IMG/VR virus record: IMGVR_UViG_3300025674_000298
Coordinates: 1 to 27,215 of that record
Direction: 5' to 3' (one strand)
Origin: a virus
Length of the DNA: 27,215 nt
The position numbers and the translations under genes were made by a program. Below, piece after piece: positions 12,390 to 27,215 of the stretch (its first letter is position 1; each line of letters opens with the position of its first letter). Under the pieces are notes generated by a model. That model did no database searches. It saw nothing but the letters and a program-made list of their open reading frames with translations, and was not told where the DNA came from.

Positions 12390-15002
12390 ATGGGAAATTT
12401 AATCAAAGAATGGGTTAAAGGAATTTTAACCGAAGATATCAATAAAAAGGTAGTAGTTTACGCAGGTAGATTTCAACCATTTCACAAAGGACATTATGCA
12501 ACTTATTCTCATTTGGTAAAACAATTTGGGAAAGATAATGTTTATATTGGAACATCAGATAAAACAGATAATATCAAATCACCTTTTAAATTCAAAGAAA
12601 AGAAAGTGATTATGATGAAAATGTTTGGTATTCCATCAGATAAAATTATTCAGATTAAAAACCCATATGCACCAACAGAAATCATTGGTAAGTTTCCCGA
12701 AGAATCAACTGCATTCATAACAGTAGTTGGTGAAAAAGATAGATACAGATTAAAAGGTAAATATTTTGAACCATATCATCCTGATAGAGTTGAGAGTGGA
12801 TACAAAGATAAAGGGTATGTGTATGTAGCACCCGCTCAATCAAATCCAATTAGTGGAACTGATGTTAGAAATTGGTTATCCAAAGGTTCAGAAGAACAAA
12901 GAAAAAGTGGATTCAAAAAAGCATACGGAAAGTTTGACCCAAAAATCTTTAAATTGGTTAGTGATAAGTTGTTTAAGATTGAATCTAAAATGGAACGATT
13001 CATTAACTCATTTGATATGAACGATATTATTAAAGAGGCAAGTATGTATTATGCAGACCCAGGAGAACCTGAAACTGGATATCTTCCTGGTGGATACACA
13101 CGAAAATTGGGAACTAATTCTGGAAAACCTGAACCTTGGTTTAATAAAGGTGGGTATACGCAAATGCATTTTCCAAAAGCAGATTACATTTACTCAAAAG
13201 ATTCAGTTAATTCGGATAAGGCCGCATTTTCAGTTATAAAACGAGTAGAACCTAACAAGGCATTAAAAGAACCAATTGAAACGGATGATTATGTTACATC
13301 TGGTATTGGTTCTAAAGGTACTGATTTATCAAAAATCTCAGAAGCATCTCAAAATTCATCAATTGGAAAATCATTAGTAGATGATGGGCCTGGATTTACA
13401 TATGGTAACTCAAAAACATACAAAAAAGTTGGTGAAGATGTTGCTCAAATGTTGGGTTGGCAAGTAGTTGATTATATCTTAGGTAGTGATGAAGATTCAA
13501 TTTATGCAGATGATGCTAGAGGCTTGGAAGATAAATACCCAGTATCATATTTCCCATCTGGTAAAGCAGGTTTGGATGCACAATCACAAAGATATACTGA
13601 TTTAAAAGGTTCAAATGCATATAAAGCTTGGGCTGATAAAATCAAAGGAGTTGCAACTTTAGTTGGATACAAACTAATAGATTTCTTAGATGCTGAAGAA
13701 GCTAAAACAAATAATCCAGATGAACCAACTAAAGAAGAATCTCCAAACTTTACTATTGATTCCGAAACTGAACCTCTAAAAGAAGGTTTGATTATGGAAG
13801 GTGGTGCATACGGACATATGAATCACCCATTTGATGTTGAAATGAATCTTACATTTGGAGATTTAAAAGCAATCATCAAAGGAGCATTAAATGGTAACTT
13901 AGAATTAGCAAGAGAAAAGACAGATGGACAAGCACTTGCTATTTCTTGGAGAGATGATAGAGGGTTAATCGCAGCAAGAAACAAATCACATCTTAAAAAT
14001 AAAGGTGCTGAAGCACTTACTATTAAAGGAGTAGCTGATAAGTTTGCAAACAGAGGTGGATTAACCGATGCTTACAATTTCGCAATGAAAGATTTGGAAT
14101 CTGCAATCAAAGGTTTATCAAAAGCTCAAAGAGATAAGATATTCCAACAAGGTGCATCATTTATGAACTTAGAGGTAATTTATCCAACATCAGTAAATGT
14201 TATTCCTTACGACCAACCACTTTTAGTATTCCATAATACAACTGAATACAATGAAAAAGGTGAGGGAATTGGTGCAAATCAATCTGCTGCAAGAATCTTA
14301 GCAGGTATGATTAAACAAATCAACAAAGATGTTCAAGACAACTATACAATTCAAGGACCACCGGTAACTGAATTACCAAAATCACAAAAGTTATCAGCTC
14401 AACAATCTAAATTTGAATCAATGTTGAAAAAACTACAAAGTGAATTTAAATTAAAAGATTCAGATGGTGTTGCTGATTACCATCAAGCTTGGTGGGAACA
14501 ATGGGTTGATAAAAATTCACCAGAAACTTTAACCAACAAAGAAAAAATGGGATTGGTAAAGAGATGGGCATTTTATGATAAAGGATTTAGATTGGATAAC
14601 AAAAACATTGAATCAGATAAAGTATTACAATGGGCTAAAAAAGTAGATAAACAAGACCAAGCTAAAATATCAAAAGAAAACACTATGAAATTCGAAGAGA
14701 TATTCTTAGGTGTTGGTGCAGAAGTTTTATCATTTATGAGTTCAGTTCTTGCAGCTAATCCTGATAAGGCAGTTAGAGATATGAAAAAAGAATTGGATAA
14801 CACAATTAAAGCAGTACAAAAATCAGGTGACCCTAAAAAGATTGAAAAACTAAGATTGGAATTAGAGAGATTAGCAAGATTGGGTGGTAAAGAAAAGATT
14901 GTACCAAATGAGGGTATTGTATTTGTTTACAAAGGAAACACATATAAATTAACAGGTGCATTCGCTCCATTGAATCAAATCTTAGGTTTAATGTATTTTT
15001 AA
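12390..15002 (+). CDS. NMN-adenylyltransferase-like plus ATP-dependent-ligase-like fusion protein
   Basis: 870 residues. Residues ~19-200 form a nucleotidyltransferase with the NMNAT/NadR-type motifs GRFQPFHKGH (26-35, HxGH at 32-35) and ISGTDVR (154-160), which bind ATP and would make NAD from NMN. Residues ~470-870 carry the order of motifs of the covalent nucleotidyltransferase (DNA/RNA ligase, capping) superfamily: EKTDGQ with candidate nucleotidyl-lysine Lys510 (motif I), MNLEVIYP (III), LLVFHN (IIIa), then after a long helical insertion NEGIVFVYKG with Glu841 (IV) and YKLTG with Lys853 (V). The middle (220-460) is of unknown function. Peptides that fit a prohead-protease site occur at LTE15, IIKE216/A, ISE318/A, LKE465/G and IME470/G, between the domains. 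Both enzyme assignments rest on motifs; substrates are unknown. Confidence 0.75.
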   Translation: MGNLIKEWVKGILTEDINKKVVVYAGRFQPFHKGHYATYSHLVKQFGKDNVYIGTSDKTDNIKSPFKFKEKKVIMMKMFGIPSDKIIQIKNPYAPTEIIGKFPEESTAFITVVGEKDRYRLKGKYFEPYHPDRVESGYKDKGYVYVAPAQSNPISGTDVRNWLSKGSEEQRKSGFKKAYGKFDPKIFKLVSDKLFKIESKMERFINSFDMNDIIKEASMYYADPGEPETGYLPGGYTRKLGTNSGKPEPWFNKGGYTQMHFPKADYIYSKDSVNSDKAAFSVIKRVEPNKALKEPIETDDYVTSGIGSKGTDLSKISEASQNSSIGKSLVDDGPGFTYGNSKTYKKVGEDVAQMLGWQVVDYILGSDEDSIYADDARGLEDKYPVSYFPSGKAGLDAQSQRYTDLKGSNAYKAWADKIKGVATLVGYKLIDFLDAEEAKTNNPDEPTKEESPNFTIDSETEPLKEGLIMEGGAYGHMNHPFDVEMNLTFGDLKAIIKGALNGNLELAREKTDGQALAISWRDDRGLIAARNKSHLKNKGAEALTIKGVADKFANRGGLTDAYNFAMKDLESAIKGLSKAQRDKIFQQGASFMNLEVIYPTSVNVIPYDQPLLVFHNTTEYNEKGEGIGANQSAARILAGMIKQINKDVQDNYTIQGPPVTELPKSQKLSAQQSKFESMLKKLQSEFKLKDSDGVADYHQAWWEQWVDKNSPETLTNKEKMGLVKRWAFYDKGFRLDNKNIESDKVLQWAKKVDKQDQAKISKENTMKFEEIFLGVGAEVLSFMSSVLAANPDKAVRDMKKELDNTIKAVQKSGDPKKIEKLRLELERLARLGGKEKIVPNEGIVFVYKGNTYKLTGAFAPLNQILGLMYF

Positions 15003-15004
15003 AG

Positions 15005-15012
15005 TATTTATA
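15005..15012 (+). promoter_or_regulatory. TATTTATA element, candidate late promoter
   Basis: Exact TATTTATA just after the stop at 15002 and 15 bases before the next ATG, with an AAAGGAAAA Shine-Dalgarno-like stretch between. Part of the recurring set. Confidence 0.45.
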
Positions 15013-15027
15013 TAAAAGGAAAACCTG

Positions 15028-15282
15028 ATGGCAAATATAGAACAAAACAGAAAATTAATGATAGAACAAATTGAATCGTTCAAAAAACCTTTGAATGAGG
15101 CAAATATTGATATGAGTAAAAACCCACGAATTGTTTTCGGTGATTTATACGATGCAGTTAGAAAATTCAACGATACAAAGGCAAAGGATGTATTGGGTAA
15201 AAAGGGTTTAAAAGAATTAGATGATTTAGTTAAAAAAATGAACTACATCAGAGGTCTAATTATGATGGGTAAAATGCAATAA
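15028..15282 (+). CDS. Small hypothetical protein with LNEA motif
   Basis: 84 residues, charged and mostly helical, no cysteines, no membrane segment. I do not recognise a family. The peptide KPLNEANID puts a candidate prohead-protease site (L-N-E24/A25) between a helical leader of 24 residues and a 60-residue remainder that has a Lys-rich helix (KAKDVLGKKGLKELDDLVKK). The start has an AGGAAAA Shine-Dalgarno-like sequence 8-10 bases upstream. It stands between the NMNAT/ligase fusion and a zinc-type protein and may share their promoter at 15005. Real gene status is supported by good frame, spacing and upstream elements. Confidence 0.7.
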   Translation: MANIEQNRKLMIEQIESFKKPLNEANIDMSKNPRIVFGDLYDAVRKFNDTKAKDVLGKKGLKELDDLVKKMNYIRGLIMMGKMQ

Positions 15283-15304
15283 TTTTAAAACCAAAAAATA
15301 AGTT

Positions 15305-15907
15305 ATGAGTAAATTAAAGAATATCAAAGCGGTATCAGAAATGTTAGAGGGTAAACACAAAACCCAAACTAAAAAAACTGTATCATTTGATAAAAAAGAA
15401 GTTGTAAGAAGAGAAGTTGGTGATACTTGGACTGATGATAAAGGTCAGAAGTGGGAACAACGAAATGGTTACAAAGTAAAGGTAGGGAAACTAGCCAAAC
15501 TCAGAGAAGAGTTGAAATCGTTTCCAAATTGTAGAAAAGATGTTTGTAGTTGTACAACACCTGGTTCTGCAGATTTAAAAATGAAAGCATATCACGGAAT
15601 GTGTTTGGATTGTGTTGTAGATATGGAACATGAACTGAAACTTAAAGGTGAATATGAAACTTATGAAAAGAAAAAGTTGTTAAGTAACGCAGAATCTTGG
15701 TTAAAAGAAGCAGAAATAGAAAAAGAAGTTCTAAAAACAACAATTAAAGCATCATTCATCAATGAAGATGGTTCTACTGAAGAGTGGGATGGTTTATCAG
15801 AAGAAGAAGTGATGAAACAAATTGAAGAGGGTTTCGAAAAGTTTAAAGAAAACTTTATAGGAAAACTCAAAGGAGAACTTAATGAAAAGATTATTCAAAA
15901 AGATTGA
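15305..15907 (+). CDS. Cysteine-rich (zinc-site) conserved phage protein
   Basis: 200 residues of unknown function. Residues 76-103 hold Cys76, Cys81, Cys83, His97, Cys100 and Cys103 (NCRKDVCSC ... HGMCLDC), a likely zinc-binding site. Before it, GDTWTDDKGQKWEQRNGYKVK (40-60) looks like a small beta domain. The C-terminal 90 residues are acidic helix. The N-terminal peptide EMLE15/G resembles the protease-site pattern found in neighbours. Start context AATAAGTTATG equals that of the endonuclease I gene. Its last 26 bases overlap the holin-like gene. I recall related sequences in large marine myophages, as uncharacterised proteins, but cannot assign a role. Confidence 0.75.
   Translation: MSKLKNIKAVSEMLEGKHKTQTKKTVSFDKKEVVRREVGDTWTDDKGQKWEQRNGYKVKVGKLAKLREELKSFPNCRKDVCSCTTPGSADLKMKAYHGMCLDCVVDMEHELKLKGEYETYEKKKLLSNAESWLKEAEIEKEVLKTTIKASFINEDGSTEEWDGLSEEEVMKQIEEGFEKFKENFIGKLKGELNEKIIQKD
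15870..15875 (+). promoter_or_regulatory. Strong ribosome binding site inside the upstream gene
   Basis: AAGGAG lies 6 bases before the ATG at 15882 and inside the coding end of the preceding gene. It decides the start of the holin-like gene despite the 26-base overlap. Confidence 0.7.
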
Positions 15908-16148
15908 AAATGGATTAACTGAATTGTTTAAAGATGATAATTCGATAAATGAAAAGGCCGTAATCGGTTTTTTAGCTTTCTTAATGATGGTATTAACATT
16001 ACTTATTGATTTATATACAGGAATCAAAGGTGAAGAGATGCCAATACATGAATTTGTATTTGATGGATTCTTATACATCACATTAGGAGCATTAGGAATT
16101 GCATCTGTAGATAAGATTTGGGGAAACAAAGGAAATAAAGAAGAATAA
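15882..16148 (+). CDS. Small two-helix membrane protein, possible holin
   Basis: 88 residues. Two hydrophobic segments are seen: about 26-45 (AVIGFLAFLMMVLTLLIDLY) and about 58-77 (FVFDGFLYITLGALGIASVD), joined by a short polar loop, with a charged N-terminus (KRLFKKIENG) and a charged tail ending GNKGNKEE. Size, two segments and charged ends fit class II holins, which permeabilise the inner membrane at lysis. No endolysin is visible in the window, so the lysis role is inferred only. It overlaps the previous gene by 26 bases with its own AAGGAG, and its stop shares a base with the next start (TAATG), implying coupled translation. Confidence 0.6.
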   Translation: MKRLFKKIENGLTELFKDDNSINEKAVIGFLAFLMMVLTLLIDLYTGIKGEEMPIHEFVFDGFLYITLGALGIASVDKIWGNKGNKEE

Positions 16149-16564
16149 TGGATATTAAAGGTTATTTAAGAGAAAGATTTAATGAGTATTACACTCAAAA
16201 AATAGATGAAGTTCTATGTGTTGAATACGCATTATCAGACTTATATGAAACCTTATGTTCAGAAAACCTAATGAATGAAGACCTTAGAAAATGGTTTGGA
16301 AAAGGTGGTTCAGGCGGAACTACCAAAGGTGGTTGGGATAGATATGGTTCTGATGGTCAGAAATTAGGAAAATGTGGTGAAGGTGAAAAAGGTGGTGCAT
16401 ACGCCGCTTGTTTATCCGCAGAAAAAGCAGCAAAATTAGGACCGAAAGGTAGAGCTACATTTGTAAGAAGAAAAAGAGCAGCCCAAAAGAAAGCTGGTGA
16501 TAGTAAAAAGGGTGGAGAAAAAACAAAAGGTCAAAAACCAACATTTTCCAAAACAGGAGCATAA
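16148..16564 (+). CDS. Small protein with acidic leader and very basic Gly/Lys-rich tail
   Basis: 138 residues. The first 44 are acidic and helical. From residue 45 on, the protein is dominated by Gly, Lys and Arg (KWFGKGGSGG, RRKRAAQKKAGDSKKGG) with two cysteines (76, 88) and a KWFG...GGWDRY...GKCG...CLS core. I recall similar KWFGKG/GGWDRY proteins in T4-like marine phages, uncharacterised. The junction LMNE44/D45 fits a prohead-protease cleavage rule, which would release a strongly basic, presumably DNA-binding ~94-residue product. This would parallel the processing of T4 internal proteins. That is inference; what is seen is the sharp charge change at the motif. The start overlaps the previous stop by one base. 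Confidence 0.75.
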   Translation: MDIKGYLRERFNEYYTQKIDEVLCVEYALSDLYETLCSENLMNEDLRKWFGKGGSGGTTKGGWDRYGSDGQKLGKCGEGEKGGAYAACLSAEKAAKLGPKGRATFVRRKRAAQKKAGDSKKGGEKTKGQKPTFSKTGA

Positions 16565-16566
16565 TA

Positions 16567-16854
16567 ATGAAAATTGATATTAAATCAGGTGGGCAAAAGT
16601 ATTCGGTAGATTTCCAAATCGGACCAGGTAGAGGTGATATCCACTTTACAGCAATGGCAAAATCATCAAAGGATTTAGATGAATTACAAACGGCAATTGT
16701 TAACAGAGGTGGTAACGACCAAACCATTGGTGCCATTATTGCAAAAGCAATTGAGAATAAATTGAAACTACCAATTGATGTTGATTATGGATATCAAGGT
16801 GCAGGATACGGATTTAAATTAGATTTATATTCTATTTCTAAAAAATTAAAGTAA
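16567..16854 (+). CDS. Small hypothetical protein
   Basis: 95 residues, mixed alpha/beta, no cysteine, no membrane segment. No family recognised. A beta-rich N-terminal half (SGGQKYSVDFQIGPGRGDIHF) is followed by a helix with TIGAIIAKAIENKL and a beta tail with GYQGAGYGFKLDL. It begins 2 bases after the previous stop and ends 9 bases before the modular protein gene, so it belongs to the same transcription unit. No protease-site motif is visible, unlike most neighbours. Confidence 0.65.
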   Translation: MKIDIKSGGQKYSVDFQIGPGRGDIHFTAMAKSSKDLDELQTAIVNRGGNDQTIGAIIAKAIENKLKLPIDVDYGYQGAGYGFKLDLYSISKKLK

Positions 16855-16863
16855 GGAAACTCA

Positions 16864-18615
16864 ATGATAAAATTAAAAGAATTACTAAACGAAGCAGTAA
16901 ACGAAGTATCTTTCAGACCAAACCCAGGTACTATGAGTGGTGGTTCATATGAGTTAGATAAAAGAAAGTATGAATTAAAAACAGATGTTAAAGGTGTAAG
17001 AATTGGTGATTATACAAATGTAACATTACCTAAAGGAACTATTATATATAACTTACCAGGTGGAGTATTTGCACACCATCCTTCATTAAAAAGATATGAA
17101 GCTGGAATGAGGAAATATTTTAATACACCCACATTCAGAGGAATATCAATTACAAGAGAAAAAAATGTTATTCTTTCAATAGAAAAAAATTCTAAGATAT
17201 TAGAATCAGTAGATAAATCTAAATTAAAAAAGGTTTATGATAATCTCAATAAAGGTGATGAGGTTACAATAAAATATGGTTCATCAATTAGTAGAAATAA
17301 TGAAGTAACTTTTATTGTAAAAAAAGGTAAAACCACAGTAGGTAAATCTAGAGTTGAAAGAATTACATTAGTAAATAAAGCAAATCCAAAAGGTGTTAAG
17401 TATTACCTATATAATCGAAATGGTAATGTATCATTAGCAATTGGTGATATGGCTGCTACAATTGATGATATTCAGATGAACGAATCAGTAAACGAAGCCA
17501 AAGATATGGCATTTGTTGATTATCTTAAAGTGTTAGATGCTAAGTTTTTAGATGGTATGAAAGCTGTTCGTGGAGACAATGGAAGTGATGCTCAAATTAA
17601 ACCAACAAGAGGTGATATACTACAAAACTTCACCCTATTCAGAAATTACTTATCTGCTTTAACTAAGAAATATAAAGGTGATAAGACTAAACTTAGATTT
17701 CTAACAGAACGAGCTAATAGATTAAATGAAATAATAAAATTAGTAAACGAAGTAATTAAAAATGGTGATGTTATCATTTTTAAAAAATCTAAAGGTGAAG
17801 TACCTAAGATTAAATATAACTCATACTCAAAGCAATTTGCAGCAGATTTCATATCACATACGGATTATTATAAAAACCTAAAAGATGCCATTACAGATAT
17901 GAAAAACGCAGGATTTGTGATTGATAAATACATACAAACCGAATCAGTAAACGAAGGTATTGAACCACAAATCAAAAAGATTGCATACTACACAGGTACA
18001 AGACCCGAAGCAGTTGAAGATTTCGTTTCTAAACATGGATTGAATATTACTAAACTTCTTAAATTTGTTGAAAAGGGTAAACTTCCAGAAAGAATGGCAA
18101 TTGTATCAGCATTAGCGGGTAACCCAGGAAATCCAGTTCAAAAGAAAATAATCAAACAATTCTCAGAATCAGTAAACGAAGAATCATATAAAGTTGCAGG
18201 TAAACCCGTTACCTTAATTAAGGGTAAAAAATCAAATGGAACTGATTGGAAAGTAAAATTTCAAAATGGTAAAGAAACTTCATTATCAGATGTATTATCA
18301 TTAATTAAACCATTTCCAAAAGGTATTAAAGAATCAGTAAACGAAGCAAATGGGACTTACTTTAAAGCCGCATATGAAGCAGCTGAATACGCAAAGGAAA
18401 TGGCTGAGAAAAAGGGGTTTGAGATTGATGAAGATGATTGGCAAACTCAAATTGGAATGGGTGGTAAACACAATCGTTTAAGACCGGGTGTTGGTAAAAC
18501 ACATTCATTCTCAGTTGGATTAACAAAGAATGGTAAACCACAAAGAAAAGCATTAAACATATCACTATATGGAATGGATAGTGGAAGCTACGAATTAACA
18601 TACTATATAAACTAA
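16864..18615 (+). CDS. Modular putative internal/head polyprotein with ESVNE linkers
   Basis: 583 residues. It begins MIKLKELLNE/A, which matches in length and cut position the capsid-targeting peptide of T4 internal proteins (MKTYQEFIAE/A, cut after Glu10). A second site follows at AVNE14. Four further copies of ESVNE lie at 207-211, 360-364, 435-439 and 490-494, followed by A, G, E and A. They divide the protein into modules of about 197, 153, 75, 55 and 89 residues that show no obvious similarity to each other. Module 4 (KVAGKPVTLIKGKK..) looks like a small SH3-like barrel, module 3 is helical, and modules 1, 2 and 5 are unassigned. A Shine-Dalgarno-like AAGGAA precedes the start. Inferred role: head-packaged cargo cut by gp21; no enzymatic motif was seen. 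Confidence 0.75.
   Translation: MIKLKELLNEAVNEVSFRPNPGTMSGGSYELDKRKYELKTDVKGVRIGDYTNVTLPKGTIIYNLPGGVFAHHPSLKRYEAGMRKYFNTPTFRGISITREKNVILSIEKNSKILESVDKSKLKKVYDNLNKGDEVTIKYGSSISRNNEVTFIVKKGKTTVGKSRVERITLVNKANPKGVKYYLYNRNGNVSLAIGDMAATIDDIQMNESVNEAKDMAFVDYLKVLDAKFLDGMKAVRGDNGSDAQIKPTRGDILQNFTLFRNYLSALTKKYKGDKTKLRFLTERANRLNEIIKLVNEVIKNGDVIIFKKSKGEVPKIKYNSYSKQFAADFISHTDYYKNLKDAITDMKNAGFVIDKYIQTESVNEGIEPQIKKIAYYTGTRPEAVEDFVSKHGLNITKLLKFVEKGKLPERMAIVSALAGNPGNPVQKKIIKQFSESVNEESYKVAGKPVTLIKGKKSNGTDWKVKFQNGKETSLSDVLSLIKPFPKGIKESVNEANGTYFKAAYEAAEYAKEMAEKKGFEIDEDDWQTQIGMGGKHNRLRPGVGKTHSFSVGLTKNGKPQRKALNISLYGMDSGSYELTYYIN
16891..16906 (+). repeat. Dispersed 16-base repeat, copy 1 (one mismatch)
   Basis: GAAGCAGTAAACGAAG, coding E-A-V-N-E, differs by one base from GAATCAGTAAACGAAG found five more times downstream. 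In the same reading frame as the others. Confidence 0.85.
17482..17498 (+). repeat. Dispersed 16-base repeat, copy 2
   Basis: GAATCAGTAAACGAAG plus C, coding ESVNEA at a module border of the modular protein. Confidence 0.95.
17941..17957 (+). repeat. Dispersed 16-base repeat, copy 3
   Basis: GAATCAGTAAACGAAG plus G, coding ESVNEG at a module border. Confidence 0.95.
18166..18181 (+). repeat. Dispersed 16-base repeat, copy 4
   Basis: GAATCAGTAAACGAAG, coding ESVNE followed by another Glu. Confidence 0.95.
18331..18347 (+). repeat. Dispersed 16-base repeat, copy 5
   Basis: GAATCAGTAAACGAAG plus C, coding ESVNEA before the last module. Confidence 0.95.
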
Positions 18616-18624
18616 GGATAGATT

Positions 18625-19857
18625 ATGAATTTAAATGAATGGATAAACACTTATATAAATGAAATTTCAGAGGATGAAAAAGACCCGCAAGAAATCACAG
18701 TAGGTAACTATCAAACAAGATACTTTCATGTTTGTCCAGGTGCATCAACTCTATACAAAGATATAGAATCAAAAGGTGTTGATATGGATATGGCCGAAAG
18801 AAGTGCAAGATTACAAGATGCACTTTATTTCGTAGAAGAACACATTCAAAGAGATGGGTATGAGCCTGATAAAGATTATGTAATGGTTGCTAATAACATC
18901 GCTAAAAACATTATGAAGATGGCTAAACTGATGGGATTGGAAGAAGAACACAATTACATACAAGGACACGTTGATACAATTGAAAAGGTTGTAAAAGAAA
19001 AAGGTTTAGAAGAATCGATTATGAACCTTACTGAAAAAAATACACCAACTGACCCATCAAAATGGGCTTACTATAAAGCTCAAGCAAAGAAGAAATTCGA
19101 TGTATATCCATCAGCATACGCAAATGGATGGGCTGCTAAAAAATACAAAGCTGCAGGTGGTGGTTGGAGAAAATCAGAATCAGTAAACGAAGCAACTCCA
19201 GAAGAAGAGGATGAATTCCACAGAAATTTAGATAAGTTAGTTCATAAAACATTCGGACACAGTTCTGATGAAGAAAAAATGAATGAAGCTAATGAACCAG
19301 ATATAATTTCACAATTAAGAGATATCGTTTCAAAAAAACAAAATCAAAAACTAAAAGACCCAAAAAGTGGTAAAAAGATGAGAGTTGATTTATACTCAGC
19401 ATCAGCAGTTACTCAAGTGTATGATGCACTAAAACAACAATCAAATAAAGATAAGTTTGTTGGTATGGGTTTAGTTGGTATGGTTAATATGGCATTTAAA
19501 TTGATTAATAAACAAGAAATAGTTGAGTATGATGTTGAAACATTAGAAGAACTAAACGATTTCCATCAGTTTATGAAAGAATACAAAGCAGATATTAACG
19601 AAGCAGAATACCAAGGTAGAAAAGTAGAACTTGGTAAGATTATGCAAGGTGATGTTAAGAAATTTAAAGTTTATGTTAAGAACGATAAAGGTAATGTTGT
19701 TAAAGTAAACTTTGGACAAGGTGGTGATGCTAAAGGTGGTACGATGAGAATTCGTAAAGATAATCCTGAGGCAAGGAAGTCATTTAGAGCAAGACATAAT
19801 TGTGATAATCCTGGTCCAAGATGGAAAGCGAGATATTGGTCTTGTAGAAAATGGTAA
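18625..19857 (+). CDS. Second modular putative internal/head protein
   Basis: 410 residues with an AAGGA Shine-Dalgarno at the stop of the previous gene. Modules, split at Glu-Ala motifs: 1-133 after a YINE13 leader (contains YFHVCPGASTLYKDI), 134-189 (WAYYKAQAKKKFDVYPSAYANGWAAKKYKA), ESVNE189/A, a short acidic linker to KMNE221/A, a 105-residue helical module, DINE326/A and a C-terminal basic module ending RARHNCDNPGPRWKARYW then SCRKW. I remember the second and last modules as recurring in many uncultured phage proteins in different combinations, without known function. The ESVNEA copy shares its DNA sequence with the repeats of the preceding gene. Inferred to be protease-processed, head-associated cargo like its neighbour; no catalytic motif seen. 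Confidence 0.75.
   Translation: MNLNEWINTYINEISEDEKDPQEITVGNYQTRYFHVCPGASTLYKDIESKGVDMDMAERSARLQDALYFVEEHIQRDGYEPDKDYVMVANNIAKNIMKMAKLMGLEEEHNYIQGHVDTIEKVVKEKGLEESIMNLTEKNTPTDPSKWAYYKAQAKKKFDVYPSAYANGWAAKKYKAAGGGWRKSESVNEATPEEEDEFHRNLDKLVHKTFGHSSDEEKMNEANEPDIISQLRDIVSKKQNQKLKDPKSGKKMRVDLYSASAVTQVYDALKQQSNKDKFVGMGLVGMVNMAFKLINKQEIVEYDVETLEELNDFHQFMKEYKADINEAEYQGRKVELGKIMQGDVKKFKVYVKNDKGNVVKVNFGQGGDAKGGTMRIRKDNPEARKSFRARHNCDNPGPRWKARYWSCRKW
19177..19193 (+). repeat. Dispersed 16-base repeat, copy 6
   Basis: GAATCAGTAAACGAAG plus C, coding ESVNEA, in a different gene from copies 1-5 and again at a module border. Confidence 0.95.
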
Positions 19858-19876
19858 TTATATAAACTATTTTAAA

Positions 19877-19884
19877 TATTTATA
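19877..19884 (+). promoter_or_regulatory. TATTTATA element, candidate late promoter
   Basis: Exact octamer in the 40-base gap, 13 bases before the ATG at 19898. Its surroundings (ATATTTATAAACAAA) match those of the copy at 24504 over 15 bases. Confidence 0.5.
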
Positions 19885-19897
19885 AACAAAAGAACTT

Positions 19898-20350: not shown

Positions 20351-20970
20351 TGAATCAATTTTTCAGTAACATAAAGAACATCATCATAGTGGTATTGATT
20401 GTAATAATCATTATCATGCAACAATGTTCTGGCCCATCAATCGATTTCAACTTATTTGGTAAGAAAAACAAACAACCCGATGCTGTTGAAGGAACTGTTA
20501 TTACCAAAATAGAAACAAAATGGGATACTGTAAAATTTGATAGCTTAGTTTATGTTCCTAAATGGAGAGTAAGAGTTGATACGGTACATGATACAACCTT
20601 AAAGGATATTGATACACTTTCAGTATTAAAAGATTATTACGCAAAGTATTTTTATACGGATACATTAGATTTAGATTCATTAGGTAATATCATAATCAAT
20701 GATACTATATCACAAAATTCAATCATATTCAGAGAAATTAATCCAAACATTTATATTCCAACTACAATCATAAAAAGAGATTCACTTATTTCAAAAAATG
20801 AATTTTATTATGGATTTGGTTTAGCAGGAAATCAAGAACAATTCAATTATATTGGTGGTGAGTTACTTTGGAGAAGTAAACGTAAAAAAGTAATTGGAGT
20901 AGGATTAGGTATTAATCAAAACTTACAACCAGTTGGTTCTCTAAGAATGATGTGGAAAATAGGAAAATGA
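20350..20970 (+). CDS. Membrane-anchored protein with N-terminal hydrophobic segment
   Basis: 206 residues. Residues 10-23 are a strongly hydrophobic run (NIIIVVLIVIIIIM), followed by QQCSGPS with Cys26. This could be a plain signal anchor or an atypical lipoprotein signal; MQQC is a poor lipobox. The body is Asp/Thr-rich (VRVDTVHDTTLKDIDTL) and the last 60 residues look like beta strands (YYGFGLAGNQ, IGVGLGIN, SLRMMWKIGK). No family recognised. It stands just before the terminase, where many phages keep lysis genes, so a spanin-like envelope role is possible but unproven. Confidence 0.65.
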   Translation: MNQFFSNIKNIIIVVLIVIIIIMQQCSGPSIDFNLFGKKNKQPDAVEGTVITKIETKWDTVKFDSLVYVPKWRVRVDTVHDTTLKDIDTLSVLKDYYAKYFYTDTLDLDSLGNIIINDTISQNSIIFREINPNIYIPTTIIKRDSLISKNEFYYGFGLAGNQEQFNYIGGELLWRSKRKKVIGVGLGINQNLQPVGSLRMMWKIGK

Positions 20971-20973
20971 GTT

Positions 20974-22545
20974 ATGAGCAAATCAATAAAAGAACTTATA
21001 AGGGAAGAGTACATAAAATGTGCTAAAGACCCTGTTTACTTTTTCAAAAAGTATTGTTACATCCAACACCCAAAACGTGGTAAAATCTTATTCGACCTTT
21101 TTGAATTTCAAGAAGATGTTATGGATGAATTTGATAAACACAGATTCAATGTAATTCTTAAATCACGTCAGTTAGGTATCTCAACATTATCCGCAGGTTA
21201 TTCATTATGGATGATGTTATTCCACGAAGATAAAAACATATTGGTAATTGCAACCAAACAAGAGGTAGCTAAAAACTTAGTTACTAAGGTAAGATATATG
21301 CATGAGAACTTACCATCTTGGTTAAGGGGTGAAACTGAAGAAGATAACAAACTATCACTTAGGTTAGGTAACGGTTCAACAATTAAAGCAACATCAGCAA
21401 GTGGTGATGCAGGTCGTTCCGAAGCTTTATCAATGTTGATTATCGATGAGGCTGCTTTTATCAAAGGTATTGATTCAATTTGGGCATCTGCACAATCAAC
21501 TCTATCAACAGGTGGAAAAGCAATTGTATTATCAACTCCAAATGGTGTTGGTAACTTCTTTCATAAGACTTGGTTAAAGGGTGAAGAGGGTGATGGTTGG
21601 AATCCAATCAAACTTCATTGGACAGTACATCCAGAACGAAACCAAAAGTGGAGATTAGAACAAACTCAATTGTTAGGTGAAAAGATGGCAGCACAAGAAT
21701 GTGATTGTGATTTCATTTCATCTGGTTATACAGTAGTTGATGGACAACTTCTACAATGGTTTGAAGAAACTCATATTCAAGAACCAGTTGAGAAAAGAGG
21801 ATTTGATGGTAACTATTGGATATGGTCACAGCCAAATTATTCAAAAGATTATATTGTAGTAGCGGATGTCGCAAGAGGTGATGGAGCAGATTACTCAGCA
21901 TTTCACGTCATAGATGTAGAAAATGTAGAACAGGTTGCAGAATACAGAGGTAAGATTGAAACCAAACATTATGGTAATATGTTGGTGAATGTAGCAACTG
22001 AATGGAACGATGCTCTATTAGTGATTGAAAACGCAAATATTGGGTGGGCAGTAATTCAAGAAGCAATTGATAGAAATTATTCAAACTTATATTATTCCTA
22101 CAAAGAGTTTGGATATGTAGATGATGATATTCATTTACAAAAAGGATATGATTTAAAAGATAAATCTCAGATGGTACCTGGTTTCTCAATGACGAGTAGG
22201 ACTCGACCTTTGGTTATATCTAAATTAGATACATATATGAGAGAGAGAGTTCCAATCATCCGTTCTAAGAGGTTAATAGATGAGCTATTCGTATTTATAT
22301 GGAATGGTAGTAGAGCTGAAGCACAGCAGGGTTATAATGATGACTTAGTGATTTCATTCTCAACATCTTTGTGGGTAAGAGATACCGCATTAAAACTAAG
22401 ACAGCAAGGTATTGAATTAAACAGAAAAGCACTTTCTCTAACCTCTAAAAATTCAGGTGTATTCAAAACAACACCACAAGTTGCTAAGAATGCATGGAAG
22501 ATGAATACTGGCAGAGGTGATGAAGATATCCGTTGGTTATTGTAA
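20974..22545 (+). CDS. 17: Terminase large subunit, T4 gp17-like
   Basis: 523 residues (T4 gp17 is 610). Packaging motor that cuts concatemeric DNA and pumps it into the prohead through the portal. ATPase: Walker A KSRQLGIST (63-71), Walker B MLIIDEAAF with Asp158-Glu159, coupling motif LSTPNG (186-191). The T4 motif SRQLGKTT has its lysine inside; here that position is Ile69 and the likely catalytic lysine is Lys63 at the front, the lambda-type arrangement. Nuclease domain of RNase H fold: VVADVARGDGADYS with Asp298, LLVIENANIG with Glu352, and YNDDLVIS with Asp456/457. The small subunit gene (16) is not next to it in this window. Start context GAGTTATG, 3 bases after the previous stop. Confidence 0.97.
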   Translation: MSKSIKELIREEYIKCAKDPVYFFKKYCYIQHPKRGKILFDLFEFQEDVMDEFDKHRFNVILKSRQLGISTLSAGYSLWMMLFHEDKNILVIATKQEVAKNLVTKVRYMHENLPSWLRGETEEDNKLSLRLGNGSTIKATSASGDAGRSEALSMLIIDEAAFIKGIDSIWASAQSTLSTGGKAIVLSTPNGVGNFFHKTWLKGEEGDGWNPIKLHWTVHPERNQKWRLEQTQLLGEKMAAQECDCDFISSGYTVVDGQLLQWFEETHIQEPVEKRGFDGNYWIWSQPNYSKDYIVVADVARGDGADYSAFHVIDVENVEQVAEYRGKIETKHYGNMLVNVATEWNDALLVIENANIGWAVIQEAIDRNYSNLYYSYKEFGYVDDDIHLQKGYDLKDKSQMVPGFSMTSRTRPLVISKLDTYMRERVPIIRSKRLIDELFVFIWNGSRAEAQQGYNDDLVISFSTSLWVRDTALKLRQQGIELNRKALSLTSKNSGVFKTTPQVAKNAWKMNTGRGDEDIRWLL

Positions 22546-22560
22546 TTCTATTTTTTTTAA

Positions 22561-22568
22561 TATTTATA
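22561..22568 (+). promoter_or_regulatory. TATTTATA element, candidate late promoter
   Basis: Exact octamer in the 63-base gap between terminase and portal genes, 40 bases before the portal ATG, preceded by eight T at 22551-22558. Confidence 0.45.
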
Positions 22569-22608
22569 TTCTGTAAGGATTATATAAACAAACGTATTAC
22601 TATATATT

Positions 22609-24501
22609 ATGGCAGATACTTCATTATTTGGAAGATTAAAAAGACTATTCTCAACTCAAACCGTAGTTCGTAGAATAGGAAAAGATAAGTTAAAGGTAGT
22701 TGATTCTTCAAGATTACAAAGTGATGGTAATCGTAGAGGCTCTGCTTATTATGATAGGTATGGTAGATTGCATGGTTCTAACTCAAGAAAGAATTGGCAA
22801 ACCTACAATGAAAGATTTAATTATCACTCAAATAAATTAGAACTATATACTGATTATGAAGCAATGGATAAAGATTCCATTATATCATCGGTATTGGATA
22901 TCTACTCAGATGAGGCCACATTGAAAAATGATATGGGTGATGTTCTTAGAATTAGTTCATCTGATGAAAAAATCAAAAAAACACTTCACAACTTATTTTA
23001 TGATGTTCTAAACATTGAGTTCAACCTTTGGTCTTGGGTTAGAGGTATGAACAAATATGGTGATTATTATCTTTATTTAGATATTGATGATGAGTTGGGT
23101 GTTGTAAATGCATCACCATTATCAACATATGAAACGAGAAGAGAAGAAGGTTATGATTTAGATAACCCATATTCAGTAAGATTTGAAGTAGAACAACAAA
23201 ACACAAACGCAATCTCACAAAGAAATGAAACTAAGTTCTTAGAATCATTCCAAGTAGCACATTTCAGATTATTGACTGATACAAACTTCCTACCTTACGG
23301 ACGTTCATTATTAGAAGGTGCTAGAAAGACTTGGAAACAATTAATTCTTATGGAAGATGCTATGATGATTCATAGAATTATGAGAGCACCTGAAAAGAGA
23401 ATCTTTAAAATTGATATCGGTAATATTCCACCTGCAGAAGTTGATACATATATGCAGAACATCATCGACCAGATGAAGAAAACTCCATACATTGATGAAT
23501 CGACTGGTGAGTACAACCTAAAGTTCAATCTTCAAAATATGTTAGAAGATTATTATCTACCTGTTAGAGGTGGACAAAGTGGTACTGAGATTGATTCTCT
23601 TAGTGGCATGGAATTTGGTGGTATAGATGATATCGAATACCTAAAGAATAGAATGATGGCAGCTCTTAAAGTTCCAAAGGCGTTCATTGGTTACGAAGAG
23701 GGGGTTGAAGGTAAAGCTACACTCGCACAACAAGACATTCGATTTGCTCGTTCTGTAGAGCGAATCCAAAAGATTGTTCTTTCAGAATTAACTAAGATTG
23801 CAATCGTTCACTTATATGCACAAGGATATGAAGATTCGGATTTAGTAAACTTTGAATTAGAATTAACTACACCATCGATTATATACGAACAAGAAAAAGC
23901 AAACCTTTGGTCTGAAAAAGTATCTTTAGTTAGAGATATGATTGACCTTAAAATGGTATCACAAGAATGGATGTATAAAAACATCTTTAATATGTCAGAT
24001 GATGAATGGAAGTTAGAACAGGCTAAAGTTATTAATGACCTTAAACTTAAATTCAGACATGAACAAATTGAAACCGAAGGTAACGACCCTGTCAAAACAG
24101 GTGAATCATTTGGAACACCACATGATTTAGCATCGTTATCTCAGCAAGGTGGTGGTGATGAAAGTGGAGCAAATGCAGGATTCCCAACTGCTGAAAACAA
24201 AGGTGGAGCGCCTGAAGGTGGATGGCCAGGTGCTGGTAGACCAAAAGAAGGTGGTAATTACGCTACTGATGATAACGCATTTGGTAGAGACCCGATTGGA
24301 AACAGAAGTATAAGTATTAAACCAGAAAAAGCATATAATGCAAACGAAGTGGTTAACAAAGAATCTACAGATGCAATGTTATCTAAAATGAAGGTAAAGT
24401 TAAAAACTAAGAAAATTATAACCGAATCACTTAAAACAGATGATGAAATATCTGAAATTGGGTTATTAGATGAAAAAAACATATTGGAATCTGATAATTA
24501 A
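22609..24501 (+). CDS. 20: Portal protein, T4 gp20-like
   Basis: 630 residues, longer than T4 gp20 (524). It forms the dodecameric ring at the head vertex through which DNA passes and on which the prohead is initiated. Recognisable gp20 blocks are the opening SLFGRLKRLF, DKDSIISSVLDIYSDEAT in the N-terminal third, WSWVRGMNKYGDYYLYLD, RAPEKRIFKIDIGNIPP and VPKAFIGYEEGVEGKATLA near residue 355 followed by the ARSVERIQK helix. The extra length is at the C-terminus: a Gly/Pro-rich low-complexity stretch (GGGDESGANAG..., GGAPEGGWPGAG) and a charged tail. The gene follows the terminase directly, without genes 18 and 19. Confidence 0.97.
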   Translation: MADTSLFGRLKRLFSTQTVVRRIGKDKLKVVDSSRLQSDGNRRGSAYYDRYGRLHGSNSRKNWQTYNERFNYHSNKLELYTDYEAMDKDSIISSVLDIYSDEATLKNDMGDVLRISSSDEKIKKTLHNLFYDVLNIEFNLWSWVRGMNKYGDYYLYLDIDDELGVVNASPLSTYETRREEGYDLDNPYSVRFEVEQQNTNAISQRNETKFLESFQVAHFRLLTDTNFLPYGRSLLEGARKTWKQLILMEDAMMIHRIMRAPEKRIFKIDIGNIPPAEVDTYMQNIIDQMKKTPYIDESTGEYNLKFNLQNMLEDYYLPVRGGQSGTEIDSLSGMEFGGIDDIEYLKNRMMAALKVPKAFIGYEEGVEGKATLAQQDIRFARSVERIQKIVLSELTKIAIVHLYAQGYEDSDLVNFELELTTPSIIYEQEKANLWSEKVSLVRDMIDLKMVSQEWMYKNIFNMSDDEWKLEQAKVINDLKLKFRHEQIETEGNDPVKTGESFGTPHDLASLSQQGGGDESGANAGFPTAENKGGAPEGGWPGAGRPKEGGNYATDDNAFGRDPIGNRSISIKPEKAYNANEVVNKESTDAMLSKMKVKLKTKKIITESLKTDDEISEIGLLDEKNILESDN

Positions 24502-24503
24502 GA

Positions 24504-24511
24504 TATTTATA
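24504..24511 (+). promoter_or_regulatory. TATTTATA element, candidate late promoter
   Basis: Exact octamer 2 bases after the portal stop and 41 bases before the next ATG. The longer context ATATTTATAAACAAA is shared with the copy at 19877. Confidence 0.5.
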
Positions 24512-24552
24512 AACAAATACATAGGTTACTTTACCAAAAATAGAAGGAAGTA

Positions 24553-25401
24553 ATGACAAAATTAAAACATAGTAAGTATAAAAATACAGGAATTCTGTTT
24601 GAACTATTGGTTAGACAGATTGCAACGGATACTTTAAACAATAGAGATTCGAAAGCAACCAACATAATCAAAGAATTCTTTGGAAAAAAGACAGAATTGG
24701 CAAAAGAACTAAGATTATATCAATCTATGATAAAAGAATCGTTCAATTCAGAGTATAAAGCAAGTGAATTTGTTAATATTATACTTAAAGAGCGTTCAAA
24801 ATTAAGTGAATCTACCTTAAACAGACAAAAATACAACTTAATCAAAGAAATTAAGAAAAATTTTGTGTTAGAAGACTTCTTTAATTACAGAGTAACCAAC
24901 TATAAAGAGAACGCATCGGTGTATAAGTTGTTTGAACACAAAAATTCAGATAATCCAAAGGAATATGTAGAGTGTAAATCAACTTTAATGGAACATTTGA
25001 CAGGAAAATCACAAAATTCCGATAAAATTGTATCTACTATCAATGAAGAATACACAAAACAACCAAAAGAAGTTAGATTATTAGCATGGAAGATGTTAAT
25101 AGAGAACTTTAACAACAAATACACCAATTTATCTGATAAGCAACAAAATATTCTTAAAGAATACATCAATTCGGTTGATAACTCTGAAAAATTAAAGAAT
25201 TTTGTGGTTAGAGAGTGTAATTTACTCACTAAAAACATAAAATCAGTAAAAATCACCGATAAAGTAACTGAAATCAAAGTAAATGAGGTTGTTAAACTTA
25301 TTTCTAAGTTAAAATCATCAAAAGTGATAACAGAATCACAAATTCTTTCACTTTTACGTTATAACGAACTATATTCTGAATTAAAGAAGGCATTTAAATG
25401 A
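24553..25401 (+). CDS. Helical protein between portal and prohead protease (head/core candidate)
   Basis: 282 residues, almost wholly alpha-helical and rich in Lys, Glu, Asn and Leu; three Cys, no membrane segment. It begins MTKLKHSKYKNTGILFELLVRQIATDTL, a block I remember from T4-like marine phages at the same place. T4 has the small prohead core genes 67 and 68 between 20 and 21; this gene and the next occupy that place but are not recognisably similar to them. A core or scaffold role is therefore positional inference. A good Shine-Dalgarno (AAGGAAG) lies about 5 bases before the start, and the stop overlaps the next start by 4 bases. Confidence 0.75.
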   Translation: MTKLKHSKYKNTGILFELLVRQIATDTLNNRDSKATNIIKEFFGKKTELAKELRLYQSMIKESFNSEYKASEFVNIILKERSKLSESTLNRQKYNLIKEIKKNFVLEDFFNYRVTNYKENASVYKLFEHKNSDNPKEYVECKSTLMEHLTGKSQNSDKIVSTINEEYTKQPKEVRLLAWKMLIENFNNKYTNLSDKQQNILKEYINSVDNSEKLKNFVVRECNLLTKNIKSVKITDKVTEIKVNEVVKLISKLKSSKVITESQILSLLRYNELYSELKKAFK

Positions 25402-25886
25402 AAAGTTTCTTAAAAGAGATAGAAGATAAGTTTGAAGAAATAGAAGAAGCTAATGTAACTGCTAATTTAGATGGTGGGGCAGGACCTCCCCGTACTCCAA
25501 ATGCATTTTCTAAATCAAAAGATGAAGAAGATTTAGATGATGACCATATTGAAGTATTGGGTTACAAAAAATCTAAAAAAACCAACAAACACTTCAGAGC
25601 AATGGAATCTTTAGAGCGTAAGTTGGAAGAAAAGATAAATGAGATATCATACAAAGAATATAAGAAAGATGATAGTAGAAAAGATTACCAAAAGGTAAAT
25701 GATTCTATAAAGAAAATCAATCGTATGATGTATGAGATGGAAAGAATCGTAAATCAAAACGCTAAGTTAAAAAACGAAGCAGGAGTTCATACAGGACAAT
25801 ATTGGAAATCTACACAAAAAAGATTTGGAAAAATTTCTGAAAGAATGTTGAAAGTCGCTCAAAGGTTAAAAGAGTTGAGTGTATGA
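25398..25886 (+). CDS. Head/core-associated protein with EEANVTANLDGG motif
   Basis: 162 residues. A helical acidic leader ending IEE17/ANV is followed by TANLDGGAGPPRTPNAF, then a charged region and a long helix to the C-terminus (ERKLEEKINEI ... ISERMLKVAQRLKEL). The ANVTANLDGG.GPP.TP block is known to me from marine T4-like phages at this position. I-E-E/A fits a prohead-protease site, so the mature form may begin at Ala18. Position 20-x-this-21 suggests a prohead core protein in place of T4 gp67/gp68. It overlaps both neighbours by 4 bases (ATGA). Confidence 0.75.
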   Translation: MKSFLKEIEDKFEEIEEANVTANLDGGAGPPRTPNAFSKSKDEEDLDDDHIEVLGYKKSKKTNKHFRAMESLERKLEEKINEISYKEYKKDDSRKDYQKVNDSIKKINRMMYEMERIVNQNAKLKNEAGVHTGQYWKSTQKRFGKISERMLKVAQRLKELSV

Positions 25887-26020
25887 GTTCTAAAAAGAAA
25901 CATATCATTAAGGAAGAACTTACTAATAAGGATTTGGAAGATATCAGATTACTTATTAGATATGAAGTTGCACAGATTATGTTCGATTTATATAGAAAAC
26001 GTAAAGTGTGGGATAAATAA
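25883..26020 (+). CDS. 45-residue protein between core gene and prohead protease
   Basis: ATG at 25883 overlaps the previous stop (ATGA) and its TAA at 26018-26020 shares a base with the protease ATG (TAATG). The 45-residue product starts MSSKKKHIIKEELTNKDLED, is basic and helical, and ends RKRKVWDK. It fills exactly the gap between two genes with coupling overlaps on both sides, which argues that it is translated. No family recognised. Confidence 0.65.
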   Translation: MSSKKKHIIKEELTNKDLEDIRLLIRYEVAQIMFDLYRKRKVWDK

Positions 26021-26637
26021 TGAGTAGATTATTAATAGATACTATACCATTTTCAATGAGTCCATCTCAAATCAATGAATCATTAAAACAAAATAATGGT
26101 AGATTGATTGTTGAGGGGGTACTTCAACGTGCAGAAGCAGAAAATCAAAATGGTAGAATCTATCCAACTGAAATTCTCAGACGAGAAGTAAAAAAATATA
26201 TGGGTAGAGAAGTAAAAGAAAATAGAGCATTTGGTGAATTAGACCATCCAGAATCATCAGTAGTTGAACTGAAAAACACATCACATATTATAAGAGATGT
26301 TTGGTGGGATGGTAAAGATGTTATGGGAAAAGTAGAAATCCTAAAAACACCAGCAGGAAACATTCTTAAAGAATTAATAGAAGCGGGTTGTACAGTTGGT
26401 ATTTCATCAAGAGGTATGGGTTCTGTTAAAGAATCATCAAATGGTAGAACTGTAACGGTGGAAGACGATTTTGATTTGATATGTTGGGACTTCGTTTCGA
26501 ACCCATCAACACATGGGGCATTTATGAAACCTGTAAATGAATCTGTATCATCTAAACCAATTAAATCATATAAAAAAATCAATACATTAGTAAGAGATAT
26601 CATCTGCGAAATCGATGGTGTTTGTTCAATAGGATAA
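26020..26637 (+). CDS. 21: Prohead core protease, T4 gp21-like
   Basis: 205 residues (T4 gp21 is 212). Serine protease of the herpesvirus-like assembly protease fold that cleaves scaffold, capsid and internal proteins during head maturation. Seen: NGRIYPTEILRREVKKY, FGELDHPESS with catalytic His76, and VGISSRGMGSV containing the nucleophile serine (129 or 130), then WDFVSNPS. In T4 the pair is His85 and Ser140. Two peptides within it resemble its own target rule: SQINE20/S near the N-terminus and PVNE174/SVSS after the catalytic domain; the latter could be a maturation cut. Follows the 45-residue gene with a one-base overlap. Confidence 0.95.
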   Translation: MSRLLIDTIPFSMSPSQINESLKQNNGRLIVEGVLQRAEAENQNGRIYPTEILRREVKKYMGREVKENRAFGELDHPESSVVELKNTSHIIRDVWWDGKDVMGKVEILKTPAGNILKELIEAGCTVGISSRGMGSVKESSNGRTVTVEDDFDLICWDFVSNPSTHGAFMKPVNESVSSKPIKSYKKINTLVRDIICEIDGVCSIG

Positions 26638-26641
26638 CATT

Positions 26642-27215
26642 ATGAAAAAACTAAAAGATATTTTAAAAGAATCAAATGTTCAGATTGGAAAAGTTTACTC
26701 TAATCCTTACGCAAAATCATTTGTAAAGGAAGAGGAAGAAGAAAGACCACAAGCTGAAGAATTAACAACTGAACAAAAACATGCATTCTTAGAAGCAGTT
26801 AAACAATTCAAAAAGTATGGCGAAGCTGTTTACAGAAACGCAGGTTTAGGTGAAGTTTACGAATCAATCAAAAATATGGTTGAAATGGCAGGTAAAGTAA
26901 CCATTTCTGAAACTGATGATTGGTTTGATAATGTAACTGTTAGTAGACATATGAAAAGAATGGGTGAATCTTTTAAAGTATTTGAAAAAACACTCAAAGA
27001 AGTATCAACACTACAACAAAGATTAGAAGCATCTTACGATGAGATTGGTGAAGTTCTTGGTAAGTATTACGAAATCAATGAAAAAGAAGAAGTGGAAGAG
27101 GGAAATGAATTCGGAGCAGCAAGAGCAAAAGCAATCGCAAATGGTGATGATTCATTTGAAGTAGATGGTAAGAAATATCCAGTAAAAGATGTGGATAAGG
27201 ATGACAAGGAGAACG
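26642..27215 (+). CDS. Prohead/scaffold-region protein, 3' partial
   Basis: 191 residues visible; the frame is open at the right edge. It begins 4 bases after the protease stop, where T4 has the scaffold gene 22, but I see no specific gp22 signature. The start MKKLKDILKE/S resembles the T4 internal-protein targeting peptide with a possible cut after Glu10. The rest is acidic and helical (EEEEERPQAEE, LKEVSTLQQRLEASYDEIGEVL), with DDWFDNVTVSRHMKRM in the middle and NEFGAARAKAIANGDDSF, then EVDGKKYPV near the visible end. I recall the latter blocks from virion proteins of large marine phages. Scaffold or internal core role is inferred from place and composition. Confidence 0.75.
   Translation, partial: MKKLKDILKESNVQIGKVYSNPYAKSFVKEEEEERPQAEELTTEQKHAFLEAVKQFKKYGEAVYRNAGLGEVYESIKNMVEMAGKVTISETDDWFDNVTVSRHMKRMGESFKVFEKTLKEVSTLQQRLEASYDEIGEVLGKYYEINEKEEVEEGNEFGAARAKAIANGDDSFEVDGKKYPVKDVDKDDKEN

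Follow-up and report, generated by a model that had tools for sequence, protein, structure and literature searches.

The locus described here raises the question of how many packaged proteins a tailed phage can draw from a single gene. T4 packages only a few internal proteins and encodes each of them in a separate gene. The stretch that we analyzed, hereafter the window, is 27,215 nt long (positions 1-27,215 of IMG/VR record IMGVR_UViG_3300025674_000298) and is a piece of a T4-like myovirus genome. Three of its genes, at 16864-18615, at 18625-19857 and from 26642 onward, encode polyproteins in which units of ~50-110 amino acids are joined by potential prohead-protease sites, mostly ESVNE↓A/G/S (the arrow marks the putative cleaved bond). 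We consider it probable that these chains are modular internal head proteins, which are targeted by a leader and cut apart in the prohead by the phage's own gp21-type protease.

The prohead protease and its expected cleavage motif

The gene at 26020-26637 encodes a member of the Peptidase_S77 family. Its product matches the PF03420 profile above the curated cut-off (E=4.4e-39; 128 bits, cut-off 27) and, when aligned with T4 gp21 (35% identity across 170 amino acids), retains the His block GELDHP and the Ser block SSRG. Homologues are present in 2,556 phage records, the best named ones being those of Microcystis phage Mel-JY01 (56%) and Flavobacterium phage vB_FspM_immuto (51%). In IMG/VR, 96 relatives of the protease were found, 80 of which were kept. 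The protease itself contains 5 sites compared to 1.10 expected, and a candidate autocleavage site, VNE174↓S, lies close to its C-terminus.

T4 gp21 cleaves after L/I-X-E, and the leaders of T4 proteins serve as capsid targeting sequences (CTS) (PMC9026906). As the window's own capsid gene lies outside the window, its cut site was judged from aligned relatives. The capsid proteins of 25 distinct relatives have a common candidate pro-region cut at about residue 60, reading VKE↓A, VTE↓A (freshwater relatives), VSE↓A (immuto) or ISE↓A (Mel-JY01), with LLENQA[KR]QLVKE↓AS as the consensus. Most marine relatives have an additional site, LNE or LSE↓G, at residue 9. The alignment thus suggests a capsid maturation cut of the VKE↓A type. 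An original prediction, made from the DNA letters alone, had proposed that a run of neighboring proteins in the window bear leaders ending in prohead-protease sites, and had stated that a capsid site of clearly different type would speak against this. The candidate cut of the relatives is of the type that it assumed, since T4 gp21 cuts after L/I-X-E. The same motif would therefore stand at the leaders and at the capsid maturation site, as expected for T4-type proteins of the CTS class.

Repeated joints divide the chains into units

Leaders of the T4 CTS type, about 10-20 residues long and ending in a prohead-protease motif, open the chains (Table 1). Internal sites follow at E207, E211, E364, E439 and E494 of the 16864 protein and at E189, E221 and E326 of the 18625 protein. 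Besides ESVNE↓A/G/S, the joints read MNE↓A, INE↓A or an internal copy of a leader such as ESKSMKLTSMLNE↓A; further joints (MKLTSMLNE↓A, LLE↓A, MNE↓A, IKE↓S) have only the P3, P1 and P1′ pattern in common. The 26642 gene, interrupted by the window end, is complete in the near relative L003, whose protease is 97% identical to that of the window and whose sequence extends beyond this point. There, the gene (L003:4576-7545) encodes 989 amino acids with about 12 units beyond a core domain, and is followed by genes for a small protein, a bS21-like protein, an acidic scaffold and the capsid protein. With 3 to 8 [LIVM]NE[AGS] joints per chain, the rule of one leader and one mature protein fails, and the chains are therefore not plain internal proteins of the CTS class.

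To quantify the enrichment, site densities were compared between the slot behind the protease, the slot before the terminase, and the other genes of six large contigs plus the window. There were 14.9 sites per 1000 amino acids behind the protease, 6.4 before the terminase and 3.8 in other genes; contig by contig, the contrast was 14.9-20.9 versus 2.9-4.6. With the same measure, the processed head proteins of T4, used as a positive control, gave 13.7 versus 2.8 for the rest, with gp22 and gp21 ranking first. The order of residues mattered as well: in slot proteins, the motif occurred 558 times forward and 214 times reversed, compared to 636 and 509 times in proteins elsewhere. Among 2,389 distinct open reading frames (ORFs) in the fetched loci, 94 contained at least three [LIVM]NE[AGS] motifs and none contained as many reversed ones, a figure that is no census because the loci were fetched for related units. 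The residue after [LIVM]NE was enriched 4.4-fold for Ala and 3.9-fold for Ser. Finally, 26.6% of partial-alignment ends fell within 5 residues of a site, compared to 13.8% for rotated sites and a maximum of 15.9% in 300 rotations.

Units are shuffled between chains and phages

Cutting 97 non-redundant slot proteins at their joints yielded 401 segments with a median length of 84 residues. They include 33 unit families with at least three members; several of these, among them D14, D12 and D5, occur in both slots, and their order varies between phages. D14 is also found in other phages, and D12 at 79 viral loci. Nine aligned relatives of the 18625 protein have the same first and last units, with differing units spliced in behind an ESVNE joint (ESVNE189↓A). 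A size series is likewise apparent for the 26642-type gene, with the core domain alone in Mel-JY01, the core plus one unit in freshwater phages, and the core plus ~12 units in L003. Alignments of mixed fragments (A1-A3) were misaligned by MAFFT and discarded.

When cut out at its joints, an isolated D14 unit was predicted to adopt a compact helix-plus-beta fold (AlphaFold2, pLDDT 90). A search with this fold against the PDB gave no match at E<=0.001; WYL-domain regulators were among its mixed best matches, and with a TM score of ~0.43 they were too weak for use. Seventy-eight percent of units have a net positive charge (mean +3.1; +14 for the D6 representative), compared to a net charge of -89 for the scaffold. 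The second-chain D20 unit matches PF19197 below the cut-off (E=8.9e-5), and one unit family has a weak match to LPD5, also below the cut-off (E=0.0078).

A small basic protein sits between the cargo chain and the scaffold (L003:7936-8226; L083:22183-22410). It is conserved in the relatives and is annotated in Mel-JY01 as ribosomal protein S21 (RpsU).

Proposed processing and alternative explanations

The protease, the leaders, the joints with their enrichment and the reshuffling of domains can be read directly from the sequences. The following steps would account for them. A short leader of the type MKxLxxLLxE would carry each chain into the prohead core, where the gp21-type S77 protease would cut after Glu at [L/I/V/M]-x-E↓[A/S/G], both to remove the leader and to sever the chain at its ESVNE↓ joints. 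Each chain would thereby yield ~4 to 12 units within the head, small and for the most part basic. Comparison of phages shows the units to be interchangeable, as they are lost, gained, reordered and moved between the post-protease and pre-terminase slots with the joints as seams. Processing of the chains is likely. By analogy with the T4 internal proteins, the majority of the units probably stay with the DNA and enter the next host, in line with leader-directed packaging and injection as established T4 precedents (PMC9026906, PMC3012670). We infer cutting, packaging, retention, injection and function of the units with certainty that decreases from cleavage of the joints in the prohead, through the units staying in the head and their delivery to the host, to their action in it.

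Alternatively, the chains could be head-core or scaffold proteins that are chopped to peptides exiting the prohead, like T4 gp22, gp67 and gp68, rather than cargo. A conserved core domain does open the 26642 gene, beside the protease, and no T4 protein is richer in sites than gp22. We nevertheless judge this unlikely, since a separate acidic scaffold gene precedes the capsid gene and fills the gp22-type role, while the units are basic, diverse and 50-110 amino acids long, with one predicted to fold stably. Moreover, unit content and order would be expected to stay constant in a scaffold among close relatives, with no units in a second slot. The core domain of Mel-JY01 stands alone, and the extra units thus look like additions.

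It is less likely still that the joints are mere flexible linkers or recombination seams in chains that act uncut, with the likeness to protease sites being incidental. The linker DNA is identical in all five window copies despite a low codon probability (see below), which suggests a DNA-level seam. However, what the other joints have in common is limited to P3, P1 and P1′ and coincides with the pattern of the protease; reversed-order motifs numbering at least three per ORF are absent; and the site pattern recurs in the capsid protein, in the scaffold and in the protease. That composition alone creates the sites by chance in proteins rich in Glu, Asn and Lys from an AT-rich phage is very improbable: Glu is common and loose single matches are indeed weak, as the original prediction had cautioned (the terminase has IKE7 and IRE11 within its first 11 residues), but for the three polyproteins chance is excluded by every one of the controls (shuffle, reversed-order, position, other-gene and T4).

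Several observations weigh against leader-targeted cargo that is cut into units. Among the slot sequences is the core domain, a part that would be degraded in T4. The P3 residue of ESVNE is Val, while the T4 motif in the literature has L or I; Val is however also present at the capsid site, which is itself derived from alignment. At some of the originally predicted leader sites, the P1′ residues are D, I or V, which are rare at joints. Most units have no confident match in Pfam, PHROG, NCBIfam or the PDB. AlphaFold2 modelled the full-length 18625 protein poorly (pLDDT 42), and this model, which was not used, lends no support to a beads-on-a-string structure of the entire chain.

The joint as a possible DNA seam

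The window has five ESVNE joints, each spelled by the same 15-mer GAATCAGTAAACGAA (Table 1), for which window codon usage gives a probability of 0.06 per copy. This is also the commonest ESVNE spelling in relatives (87 of 132 copies, counting redundant contigs). Because the flanks differ, the repeated element is the joint itself. Its identity fits recombination through the joint, and recent copying could also explain it. Tentatively, the five-residue joint may be used twice, as the protease cut that frees the units in the head and as a 15-bp recombination seam for reshuffling the set of injected proteins through domain exchange inside a single gene. If so, tailed phages would have a polyprotein strategy of their own, in which the capsid protease acts on the chains in trans and the units are packaged as a kit.

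Leaders on neighboring genes

The original prediction had listed eight genes with candidate sites from 12390 onward, and all eight genes and site strings are present where it placed them. The number of genes with a loose leader motif ([LIM]xE within the first 45 residues) was compared to shuffles. From 12390 on, 14 of 16 genes have the motif versus 8.0 expected (standard deviation 1.9; P=0.004), and among the five genes before 12390, there are 3 versus 2.3 expected (P=0.42). A strict motif, [LIVM]xE[AGS], is found in 6 cases within 12390-27215 versus 1.8 expected (P=0.005). The run of neighboring leader sites is hence real relative to shuffled controls. Equal site density in genes that are not packaged, named in advance as contrary evidence, was not observed: the listed genes have 9.1 sites per 1000 amino acids versus 3.7 in the endonuclease, primase, SbcCD, tail fibre, terminase and portal genes.

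Five of the eight sites are conserved in distinct relatives or aligned rows, namely LTE15 of 12390 (5/5 rows), M[NT]E44↓D of 16148 (4/4 distinct relatives), E13 of 18625 (7/8, though P1′ is mostly V or I), E17 of 25398 (18/18) and LKE10 of 26642 (28/29). The 16148 site is weaker than the joints because its P3 is Met and its P1′ is Asp. The relatives of 15028 are too few for judgment, and the N-terminus of 16864 could not be aligned. We rejected MLE15 of 15305 as a cleavage site, as other residues (L, S, A and D among them) take the place of its Glu; chance composition is the likely explanation of this match. The idea of a packaged set much larger than that of T4 and cut by the prohead protease is therefore supported, with one of eight sites failing and the detail partly wrong. 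Leaders are enriched as proposed, but the stronger signal, the repeated internal joints, had been missed. Likewise, 26642 does begin with a leader, but it encodes a head-core domain that opens a giant cargo chain rather than a plain internal protein.

The neighboring 12390 product, and perhaps those of 15028 and 16148, are probably single packaged proteins with the same type of leader. The 12390 protein (PF01467, E=1.1e-6; phrog_395) is the only recognized enzyme among the leader-bearing genes of the window, protease aside, and is a candidate packaged enzyme. Its C-terminal part (window 13800-15002) contains strings like nucleotidyltransferase/ligase motifs, REKTDGQ and EGIVFVYKGNTYKLTG. A PDB profile search returned nothing meaningful for a nucleotidyltransferase/ligase assignment of this part (KTDG and EGIVF..YKLTG strings), which is therefore no more than a lead.

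Family searches named the endonuclease, primase, SbcD-SbcC fusion, terminase, portal and prohead protease genes of the window; a long tail protein was identified by other means. At 2687-5860, a single 1,057-residue protein joins SbcD-like (gp47) and SbcC-like (gp46) nuclease subunits.

Table 1 Positions of the polyprotein parts, leader-bearing genes and head genes in the window (↓ marks a candidate cleavage point)
Positions	Strand	Feature	Remark
12390..15002	+	Nicotinamide mononucleotide (NMN)-adenylyltransferase-like enzyme plus C-terminal domain of unknown fold	Leader MGNLIKEWVKGILTE15↓
15028..15282	+	84-amino-acid protein	Candidate leader LNE24↓A, possible; kept in 2/2 relatives
16148..16564	+	Acidic first part, basic Gly-rich rest	Candidate site MNE44↓D
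16864..16893	+	First polyprotein, leader MIKLKELLNE↓	T4 CTS-like, 10 residues; without alignable relative
16894..17205	+	First chain, unit 1, residues 11-114	End is candidate ILE114↓S, the least certain joint
17206..17496	+	First chain, unit 2, family D14	Closed by MNE207↓S and VNE211↓A
17497..17955	+	First chain, unit 3	Closed by ESVNE364↓G
17956..18180	+	First chain, unit 4, family D12	Closed by ESVNE439↓E
18181..18345	+	First chain, unit 5	Closed by IKE490↓S and ESVNE494↓A
18346..18615	+	First chain, unit 6, C-terminal, residues 495-583	61-77% identical fragments in relatives
17482..17496, 17941..17955, 18166..18180, 18331..18345, 19177..19191	+	Joint 15-mer GAATCAGTAAACGAA	Encodes ESVNE
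18625..18663	+	Second polyprotein, leader MNLNEWINTYINE↓	Site INE13; P1′ hydrophobic, weaker
18664..19014	+	Second chain, unit of family D28	End near LEE130↓S
19015..19191	+	Second chain, unit of family D20, DUF5872-like (weak)	Closed by ESVNE189↓A
19192..19287	+	Second chain, short acidic unit	Closed by MNE221↓A
19288..19602	+	Second chain, unit of family D5	Closed by INE326↓A
19603..19857	+	Second chain, C-terminal unit of family D6, basic	phrog_7595, E=3.2e-7
20974..22545		Terminase	
22609..24501		Portal	
25398..25886	+	Gene between portal and protease (T4 gp67/gp68 position)	Site E17
26020..26637	+	T4 gp21-type prohead protease (Peptidase_S77), presumed cutter	PF03420
26642..27215	+	Cargo polyprotein start, leader MKKLKDILKE↓S, then head-core domain	Interrupted by window end

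Comparison with known systems

The T4 internal proteins IPI, IPII, IPIII and Alt resemble the chains in having a short N-terminal leader ending in hydrophobic-x-Glu and a gp21-type protease in the genome; the MKxLxxLLxE type of leader is that of T4 IPII/IPIII and gp24. Internal proteins of T4 are also small and basic, with content that varies between relatives. However, they come as one protein per gene, while here many units with internal joints share a chain and the sets are shuffled by unit. The T4 core proteins gp22, gp67 and gp68 are similar in their many sites per protein and in the location of their genes beside the protease, and the 26642 chain probably has a core protein as its first domain. 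Unlike these proteins, which are degraded to peptides, the added units are basic and modular and occur alongside a separate acidic scaffold.

Giant phages such as phiKZ and SPN3US likewise have a big internal protein load, which an S77-related protease (gp175/gp245) matures by cutting after x-x-E motifs. In the accessible parts of the reports on their ejection proteins, the cuts remove propeptides, with several sites inside a propeptide, and a chain of several mature units, as proposed here, is not described (PMC5694885, PMC10052503). The nearest concept is that of the polyvalent proteins of phages and conjugative elements, which are multi-domain, shuffled, predicted to be packaged and delivered with DNA, and have been likened to viral polyproteins (PMC5512222). 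Their release is assigned to embedded peptidase domains (in many, not all), whereas here the head protease is presumed to act in trans; family searches found no peptidase family in the 16864 and 18625 proteins or the 989-amino-acid L003 chain. Of the domains known from polyvalent proteins, the sole match was the weak one to LPD5 given above. In the open-access literature, we found no paper on phage head polyproteins cut by a prohead protease, with subscription papers and preprints outside the search.

Compared to the T4 internal proteins, the apparent novelty is that several mature units are encoded by one gene. If the chains are cut as proposed, many marine and freshwater T4-like phages carry up to a dozen cargo units per gene, which would multiply the proteins able to act in the host ahead of phage gene expression. 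Dozens of unnamed protein families from viral metagenomes would become predicted head cargo, with a simple sequence rule to find more, and what aquatic phages inject would become a directly testable question.

Related chains and leaders in other phages

A T4-like contig encodes a 579-amino-acid chain with repeated SVELDE↓A/G joints in place of ESVNE (L235:3500-5248), which indicates that the wording of the joint is lineage-dependent and the hydrophobic-x-Glu pattern constant. Flavobacterium phage immuto, which is in culture, has the protease, leaders and a chain of 841 amino acids with MNE↓SVNE↓G joints. In another virus record, without a Peptidase_S77 match but with a packaging-ATPase-like gene recognized by eye, a 1,079-residue chain has 13 KGG-type (mostly AKGG) repeats between units that include D14 and D17 homologues (L240:2-3271; G011). 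This is possibly the same cargo idea with the joint of another protease.

Leaders were also observed on 5′-nucleotidase-like proteins, which are candidate packaged enzymes (G005:72393-72932, MIKLAQLLKE↓S; L082:14813-15412, MKKVMGNLADLLLE↓E). The leader-bearing 5′-nucleotidase-like protein of immuto falls just under the Pfam cut-off, and the likeness of the G005 protein was judged by sequence. A second leader style, of the MKISELRQIIREEVKRVLNE↓G kind, occurs on unrelated proteins (G005:65872-66231, G001:90668-91162, L251:11371-11973) and may be another capsid targeting sequence. Finally, Methylophilales phage Melnitz and Pelagibacter phage HTVC008M (MZ577097 and KC465899; L119 and L120) have leader-bearing proteins (MKKFSEIIE↓A, MTRYTKTMAE↓A) with overlapping content, comprising cytidylyltransferase-like and 5′-nucleotidase-like proteins and units D5, D6 and D14.

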